Shown here one piece after another: positions 42,601 through 45,600 of a stretch of DNA of 64,000 bases. Source of the stretch: Zeus faber (taxonomy: Eukaryota > Chordata > Actinopteri > Zeiformes > Zeidae); the NCBI GenBank assembly GCA_960531495.1, contig OY482849.1:36900790-36964789 (forward strand), written 5' to 3'. The notes under the pieces were generated by a model. The model saw only the letters and a list, made by a program, of their open reading frames with translations, did not search any database and was not told the DNA's origin. The position numbers and the translations under genes are program-made. The first letter of the stretch is position 1. The number at the start of each line of letters is the position of its first letter.

Positions 42601-45600
42601 AACTGGTTACTGTCCTCATCAACAGCTAGCAAATGCTGGACTACAACTGGTTACGGTCCTCATCAACAGCTAGCAAATGCTGGACTACAACTGGTTACTG
42701 TCCTTATCAACAGCTAGCAAATGCTGGACTACAACTGGTTACTGTCCTCATCAACAGCTAGTAAATGCTGGACTACAACTGGTTACTGTCCTCAGCAACA
42801 GCTAGTAAATCCCGGACTACAACTGGTTACTGTCCTCAGCAACAGCTAGTAAATCCTTGACTACAACTGGTTACTGTCCTTATCAACAGCTAGCAAATGC
42901 TGGACTACAACTGGTTACTGTCCTCAGCAACAGCTAGTAAAATCCTGGACTACAACTGGTTACTGTCCTCATCAGTAGCTAGTGCCTCCTGTCTGTCAAT
43001 CATTAAGCCCCTCCCACCACATGGCATTAACCCCTTCCTACCTGGCACTCTTTCGATGTGGTTCCCCACCAGGACCAGGTGAAGCAAGGATCTCGGCAGG
43101 TAGGAGGGAACAAGGTGGAGGTCATTATGGGATAGATCGATGGACTCCAAGTTCCTGAGGTGGAGGAACAAGAAGCAGTATCATTCATACCCAGATGTCT
43201 ACTTTTATATACAGGTACTCTTTACTTAACGACTTGAGTTCCGTTTCTAGGACCAGGTTGATCAGCGATGACCTGTGTTATTTGACGGAAGGGGGCGTGG
43301 TTATTGCGAATACTAGTGTAGTGAATACTGACAAAGTGAGGCAACGAGGCTGAGGACGCTGATGAGCAATGAGATGCTTGGCGCTGAGACGCCGCCGTGT
43401 TGTACGCACAGACAACACAGGCTGGTCATAGAGCTGCTCTGACGTCTGCACCGTGGTTAAACAGGTCGGTCGTTAGGGGAGGAGTACCTGTTCTCAAATC
43501 CCATGTTAGAGGGGTGATGGAGGGGGTTGGAGGTGGGTGGACGAGTGATGGGGGGGGGGTGGAGGATGGATGGAAGGTGCTGGGGGAGGGATGGAAGGGT
43601 GAAGGAGGAGGGTGGAGGAGGGACCTGTGGTGGATCCAGGCCAGGGGGGCGATGCGGGCCTCGTCCAGCTTGTTGTGTCTCAGCGACACCACGTTAAGGC
43701 TGGTGGTCTGGTTGAAAACACCACCAGAGATCTCCTCCACCAGGTTGTTCTCCAGGTGGAGCTCCTGCAAAACAGGGAAGGTTTGATGATCTACCTATGT
43801 GCTAATGTCTGAGTACCTGTTTGTGTGCTACTGTCTGCGTGCTTCTATTTGTAGCATGCAGACAGGTAGTCTGCATGCTGAGCAGCTGCATCACCAGAAC
43901 CAAGAGAAGCAAGTAGGATGTATGCGTCGGTTCCAGTAGGATATGTGCGCCGATGCCAGTAGGGAGTGTTCCCCGGTACCAATAGGGTGTGCTGGTACCA
44001 GTACGATGTTTGCGCTGGTACCAGAAGGGTATATGCGCTGGAACTAGTAGGGTGTGTACTCCAGTACCAGTAGCATGTGTGCCCTGGTACCAGTAAAATG
44101 TGTGCCCTGGTAGCAGTAGGATGTGTGCGCCAGTACCAGTAGGATGTGTGCGCGAGTACCAGTAGTATGTGTGCGCCGGTACCAGTAGGGTGTGTGCGCC
44201 GGTACCAGTAGGGTGTGTGCGCCGGTACCAGTAGGGTGTGTGCGCCGGTACCAGTAGGGTGTTCGCGCCGGTACCAGTAGGGTGTTTGTGCTGGTACCAG
44301 TAGGGTATGTGCACTGGTACCAGTAGGATGTTTGTGGCGGTACAGTAGGGTATTTGCGCTGGTACCATTTAGGTTGTGTGCACTGGTACCAGTAGGGTGT
44401 GTGTTCCGGTACCAGTAGGATGTGTGCGCCAGTACCAGTAGGAAGTTTGCACGAGTACCAGTAGGGTATGTGTGCGCCGGTACCAGAAGGATGTTTGTGC
44501 CAGTTCCAGTAGGGTATGTGCACTGGTATCCTTTAGGTTGTGTGCGCTGGTACCAGTAGGGTGTGTGTTCTGGTACCAGTAGGATGTGTGCGCCAGTACC
44601 AGTAGGATGTTTGCACGAGTATCAGTAGGGTATCTGTGCTGGTACCAGTAGGGTATGAGCACCAGTACCAGAAGGGTATGTGCGCCGGTACCAGTAGGGT
44701 GTGTGCAACGGTACCAGAAGGATGTTTGTGCCAGTTCCAGTAGGGTATGTGCACTGGTACCAGTAGGATGTTTGTGCCGGAACAGTAGGGTATTTGTGCT
44801 AGTACCCTTTAGGTTGTGTGCGCAGGTACCAGTAGGGTGTGTGTTCCGGTACCAGTAGAGCGTGTGCGCTGGTACCATTAGGGTGTGTGCACTGGTACCA
44901 GTAGGGTGTGTGCGCCGGTACCAGTAGGGTGTGTGCGCCGTTAGCAGTAGGGTGTGTCCACCAATACCAGTAGGGTGTGTGCGATGGCACCAGAAGGATG
45001 TTTGTGCCAGTTCCAGTAGGGTATGTGCACTAGTACCAGTAGGATGTTTGTGCTGGTACAGTAGGGTATTTGCGCTGGTACCAGTAGGATGTGTGGGCCA
45101 GTACCAGTAGGATGTTTGTACGAGTACCAGTAGGGTGTGTGCGCCGGTACCAGTAGGGTGTGTGCGCCGGTACCAGTAGGGTGTTTGTGCCAGTTCCAGT
45201 AGGGTATGTGAACTGGTACCAGTAGGATGTTTGTGCCGGTACAGTAGGGTATTTGCGCTGGTACCCTTTAGGTTGTGTGGTCCGGTACCATTAGGGTGTG
45301 TGTGCCGGTACCAGTAGGGTGCTGGGAAGGCCTTGGGGTATGGTGCGGAAGTAGTTGCGACCCAGTCGCAGGTAGGACAGCTGGCTGAGGGAGGAGAATG
45401 CCTGAGGAGCCACGTTGAGTTCACTGAGCAGGTTGTCCTCCAGCTCCAGGATCATAAGGCTGCTCAGATCTACACACAATATGAGGATATGCAGTTTATT
45501 GTATATGGATATATATACATGAGGATATACAGTATATATGAATATATACATGAGGATATACATTATATATGGATGTATATGTGTGGATATACATTATATA

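Follow-up and report, generated by a model that had tools for sequence, protein, structure and literature searches.

Splice donors that lie within minisatellites have been described in human genes, and the closest known system to the array considered here is the VNTR in intron 18 of ABCA7. In the parts of the ABCA7 report cited here (PMC5954066), a 25-bp repeat unit directly adjoins exon 18, whose donor it contains. When an inner donor is used, one unit is retained, and the resulting mRNA is out of frame and sensitive to decay. Two frameshifting isoforms are given there at 14 +/- 6% and 2 +/- 1%, the latter being, as the text reads, the one-unit retention. Neither varied with VNTR length in that portion of the report; exon 19 skipping did, and ABCA7 expression was inversely correlated with VNTR length. 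Another example is the human IFI6 (6-16) gene, in which a minisatellite gives multiple donors (Turri et al. 1995, NAR 23:1854, cited in PMC4526556). According to the relevant extract of the citing paper, the downstream repeat units are used and three mRNA species are made.

Duplications at the edges of exons are also on record. In an excerpt of the work on the potato RdRp gene (PMC4974935), a tandem duplication across an intron-exon boundary led to the gain of an intron. In human segmental-duplication genes, variation in internal tandem repeats at exon-intron boundaries alters splicing, as stated in the section cited (PMC2812944). Fish introns are known to carry variable minisatellites as well, and introns 1 and 3 of the growth hormone gene of Sparus aurata vary in minisatellite repeat number, going by an extract of that paper (PMC3045353). 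A donor-containing array in ecm2, or in any fish, was not seen among the literature matches listed.

The minisatellite at the end of ecm2 exon 7

The fish ecm2 gene lies on the minus strand of the window (the whole 64-kb stretch of DNA analysed) and has about 11 coding exons, according to a splice-consistent reading and tblastn with fish ECM2 proteins. Eight of them, exons 3 to 10, come from the splice-consistent reading with consistent splice sites, and exons 1, 2 and 11 have edges set only by the ends of tblastn matches. Exon 7 is an LRR exon of 158 nt (45312..45469, minus strand; splice-consistent model and tblastn), and its last residues are GLPSTLL. Its last base is 45312, where the minus strand reads CACCCTACTG up to the junction and GTACCGGC after it. 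The predicted true donor of intron 7, CTG followed by GTACCG, has its GT at 45310..45311 (minus strand), as given by the model and by 120 of the 120 protein rows listed. Exon 8 (43625..43764, minus strand; same two lines of evidence) begins with ELHLENN and is preceded by the acceptor TTTTGCAG. A U12-type intron was considered and rejected, since the donor GTACCG is unlike the U12 consensus.

Intron 7 is 1547 nt long, and 90% of it is a 23-bp minisatellite; the remainder outside the array is 147 nt that ends in the acceptor (43765..43911, minus strand). TRF places the array at 43912..45321 (minus strand), with a period of 23 and 61.4 copies. Parsing by wrap-around alignment, with CACCCTACTGGTACCGGCGCACA as the consensus unit, gives 61 near-complete units and one partial, a copy number read from one sequence that assembly could have altered. 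The first-pass annotation had already placed an array here, with about 58 units at 43922-45312; the array is there, and those limits were slightly short.

Unit 1 starts at 45321, is made up of the last 10 bases of exon 7 and the first 13 bases of intron 7, and agrees with the consensus at 22 of its 23 bases. The array and the exon overlap by 10 bp in exact register. For a sequence of even composition that is unrelated to the array, the match of all ten exon bases in a fixed register would come up about once in 10^6 by simple arithmetic. The decamer CACCCTACTG has 17 copies in the window (0.32 expected from shuffles), all 17 lie inside the array interval, and one of them is the exon copy. The array does repeat the last ten or so bases of the exon together with GTACC, as had been claimed. 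A stop-free frame of 360 codons (44369-45451, minus strand) also crosses most of the array together with exon 7, out of register with the coding frame.

Candidate donors and their products

Donors were scored in bits on an approximate vertebrate donor matrix, on which the possible maximum is 8.63. The predicted true donor of exon 7 scores -1.89 on this matrix and is weak, in agreement with the earlier description. Weaker donors follow exons 8 (-2.62) and 10 (-2.97), and those of exons 4 (6.26) and 5 (6.89) are strong. The dozens of donor copies that had been proposed for intron 7 are indeed there: a GT stands at the donor place in 50 of the 60 inner units, and the 52 units in register include the true donor and one unit that an inserted base disrupts. 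Of the 50, 13 match the predicted true donor at all nine bases. On this matrix 19 tie with it, 2 are higher and 29 lower, so that 21 of the 50 score at least as high. When all 77 GT sites between exon 7 and the acceptor are ranked on the same matrix, the predicted true donor comes sixth, with many ties, and the top three sites, all above it, sit in the part of intron 7 that is not array.

Translation indicates what would follow from the use of an inner copy. Readthrough from exon 7 gives V P A H T P in frame and then a stop, the TAA at 45293-45291 in unit 2 (45276..45298, minus strand; unit parse and translation). The products of all 50 inner donors end at this same TAA, so splicing at inner donors should give truncated mRNA. 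A truncated mRNA that still has exons 8-11 downstream is a normal target of nonsense-mediated decay, and the mRNAs from inner donors would probably be decayed.

One could consider such decay to be the purpose of the array. The inner donors would then be substantially used, and array length would set the fraction of ECM2 mRNA that is lost, as a poison exon extension tuned by length. The supply of GT-bearing inner units (50 of 60, with 21 at least equal to the true donor on the approximate matrix) would suit such a role, as would the stop that every inner product meets already in unit 2. The human parallel points both ways in the extract cited (PMC5954066): ABCA7 expression falls with VNTR length, but the frameshifting isoforms at 14 +/- 6% and 2 +/- 1% stay unchanged with it. 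Conservation of the array columns, by inspection, is also without a clear sign that donors have been preserved, and regulation of dose by array length seems to us unlikely. Columns 4-14 are 94% consensus, and the variable ones, read by eye, are for the most part CpG sites or hold variants passed on in blocks. Selection on the inner donors was therefore set aside, there being no clear signal of it in the column conservation inspected.

If the outermost donor is dominant, exon context and exon length may be what keeps it so. RNA structure that masks the inner donors or exposes the true one found no support as the cause. In local folding the true donor does not stand out, with unit 1 at rank 35 of 51 for accessibility. 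Nor does the segment 45050-45340 fold in an unusual way (z -1.36); 21 of 200 shuffles equal or exceed it in stability. Since local pairing has no preference for the true donor, the sequence examined offers no reason for the outermost copy to win.

Origin of the array and other duplications in ecm2

The end of exon 7 could be compared across the best 120 of 1168 ECM2 proteins, which are fish where named (two rows are unnamed) and are mostly predicted proteins, with several isoforms per species. Exons 7 and 8 are joined without an insert in all 120 listed rows. The Leu-Leu encoded by the bases that overlap the array is invariant in the same 120, and the residue before it is S in 97, T in 18, A in 3 and L in 2; T-L-L is present in the rows of Polymixia, Lota and Lampris. 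The Leu-Leu argument constrains amino acids, not nucleotides; the ten overlapping exon bases equal the array consensus at the wobble positions as well, which the amino acids do not force. Because the junction and the Leu-Leu are kept in every listed row, the coding function of the exon end appears to be older than the array. An exon end backed by homology in turn suggests that the array came from duplication across an existing junction.

Duplication across the already existing exon 7/intron 7 junction is thus the most likely origin of the array as judged from the sequence, and descent from the junction is the simplest reading. Chance resemblance between the array and the exon end was rejected, given 17 decamers for 0.32 expected and 120 of 120 listed rows contiguous. 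The first-pass annotation had proposed this exon end, with the true donor outermost and the array grown out of the junction. The model and the contiguous rows back the exon end, the outermost position is consistent with the exon ending in unit 1, and the 10-bp overlap, the confinement of the decamer and the 120 rows argue for the growth from the junction. The two outcomes that it had named as fatal, an exon 7 that ends elsewhere and a resemblance due to chance, are answered in part by the same rows and their invariant Leu-Leu.

In the ECM2 tree, the window has a long branch (0.42). It groups with Lota and a row that bears the name Lepidogalaxias (89/80) and, weakly, with Polymixia (76/76). The public ECM2 protein P0037, which carries the name Lepidogalaxias salamandroides, is placed with Lota lota (100/99). 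This is far from the expected position of that species and is possibly a labelling problem.

The array could also have originated at another place in the intron, or been imported, and later have overwritten the end of exon 7 through gene conversion or crossing-over. Unequal exchange with unit 1, which is one base off the consensus, would leave a working exon end because each consensus unit carries those exon bases and a donor. An unrelated repeat would, however, have had to encode in frame, by chance, the Leu-Leu that is invariant in 120 of 120 listed rows, and we regard overwriting as very unlikely. That intron 7 is new in the lineage and was made by a junction-like repeat expanding inside an exon, a kind of intron gain by duplication documented in the cited part of the potato work (PMC4974935), is very unlikely: the orthologous proteins do join directly here, though an old intron fits this equally well, but the array is on the donor side only and is followed by 147 nt that are not array and carry an acceptor of their own.

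The explanation that we favour overall, and consider probable, is an array seeded at the junction, with the outermost donor in use, inner use decayed and the array a passenger. Some 23 bp across the exon 7/intron 7 junction (10 exon and 13 intron bases) would have been duplicated in tandem and so have seeded the minisatellite, and unequal exchange or slippage would have amplified it into intron 7. Coding constraint would have held the outermost copy in place as the end of exon 7, a course that the sequence and protein homology support. Exon definition around exon 7 would probably be the main reason for the choice of its donor. If an inner copy were used now and then, the mRNA would gain about 23 nt for each unit, reach the TAA of unit 2 and probably be lost to nonsense-mediated decay. 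The array itself probably has no dedicated function and is tolerated as a slightly leaky passenger. Growth at the exon edge is not supported by the units themselves, since those identical to the consensus (7, 8, 18, 28 and 47-50) are all internal and mean divergence is greatest, at 4.1 changes, in the distal bin of units 51-60. Both features are expected if later growth took place in the middle of the array.

Duplications that span a junction do occur in ecm2, as is seen at the acceptor of exon 6. A 95 bp x 2 duplication (45843..46029, minus strand; TRF period 95, 2.0 copies, 93% matches) takes in the end of intron 5, the acceptor and the beginning of exon 6. The duplicates, 46030-45936 and 45935-45841, are identical at 87 of 95 positions, and the 15 bases before both acceptor copies are identical. 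Only the downstream duplicate continues into the full exon 6; the upstream acceptor, if used, would by translation give a frameshift and a stop. This two-copy duplication, one exon upstream of the array, may represent an early stage of array founding.

Arrays are common in the rest of the gene, as TRF finds them in 9 of the 10 ecm2 introns and four introns are at least 88% array. Short arrays at 43509-43623, 45708-45758 and 46639-46721 (minus strand) begin after 1, 5 and 9 bases of introns 8, 6 and 5, respectively. Clustering of arrays at splice sites was put to an exploratory, post hoc placement simulation with uncorrected P values, in which an overlap was scored as zero, short and simple arrays were kept in, and tblastn match ends served as the edges of exons 1, 2 and 11. 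In the nine array-bearing introns, 4 donors have an array within 10 nt where 1.07 would be expected (P 0.003), and P is 0.08 for 30 nt. With intron 7 excluded, the 10-nt figure is 3 against 0.99 (P 0.025), and P for 30 nt is 0.23. Acceptors number 1 within 10 nt (P 0.78) and 5 within 30 nt (P 0.011). The clustering has a partly trivial cause, which is the short non-array part of several ecm2 introns. The exons of asporin, beside ecm2 (27594-29888, minus strand), lie within a stretch without TRF arrays (26742 to 33498), and for this reason too the clustering is only a lead. A tendency of minisatellites in this genome to originate at splice junctions is quite unlikely, and the odds of such a junction-born reading are lowered because the donor clustering weakens without intron 7. 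If it were general, introns would expand preferentially from their splice junctions.

Three other features of ecm2 were observed, all on the minus strand. A 26-bp array (46866-49429) ends 19 nt before exon 5, and its last copy contains CACTAAT, which is branch-point-like by eye, so the branch point may lie within the array. Inside exon 4, a 24-bp coding minisatellite (49887-50032) encodes an acidic repeat. Intron 3 has a transposase frame (51240-52322) of 360 codons without a stop, with inverted matching flanks seen by eye, and we take it to be Tc1/mariner-like.

The ecm2 array among donor-containing minisatellites

Intron 7 of ecm2 can be viewed as a natural competition among about 50 similar 5' splice sites, in which the presumed true site is outermost and weak. 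The ECM2 protein is well conserved, and rules of exon definition and distance are testable in this 23-nt ladder. The array would also document the founding of a minisatellite on an exon-intron junction. The stop shared by the inner products, the duplication at the exon 6 acceptor and the human precedents are points that the first-pass annotation did not mention.

By its structure, the array appears to have the features of donor-containing minisatellites of the ABCA7 and IFI6 kind. Tandem units of minisatellite size stand at the exon end (TRF and unit parse), inner units retain a donor-like GT (50 of 60), and the first unit holds, by homology only, the predicted authentic donor (model and 120 of 120 listed rows). 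Compared with potato RdRp, as far as the excerpt describes it, the exon 6 acceptor and the presumed founding of the array share a duplication that copies splice signals. The potato gene gained an intron, whereas the exon 7 duplication would instead have become an array of about 61 units. The repeats of human segmental-duplication genes average 4 units of 30 bp and are found in young paralogs in the section cited, unlike the ecm2 array.

The IFI6 minisatellite, in the extract that describes it, likewise provides several donors at an exon end. Its unit is 12 bp and would keep the frame, in contrast to the 23-bp unit of ecm2. ABCA7, in the parts of the report cited, has a minisatellite flush with the exon end and the authentic donor inside, as in ecm2. 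It differs in its measured isoforms and length variation, whereas the ecm2 array is known here from one DNA sequence. The ABCA7 array is described there as beginning at the GT itself, whereas the ecm2 unit also carries 10 coding bases. These coding bases in its unit, together with about 50 competing candidate donors, are what make the ecm2 array notable.
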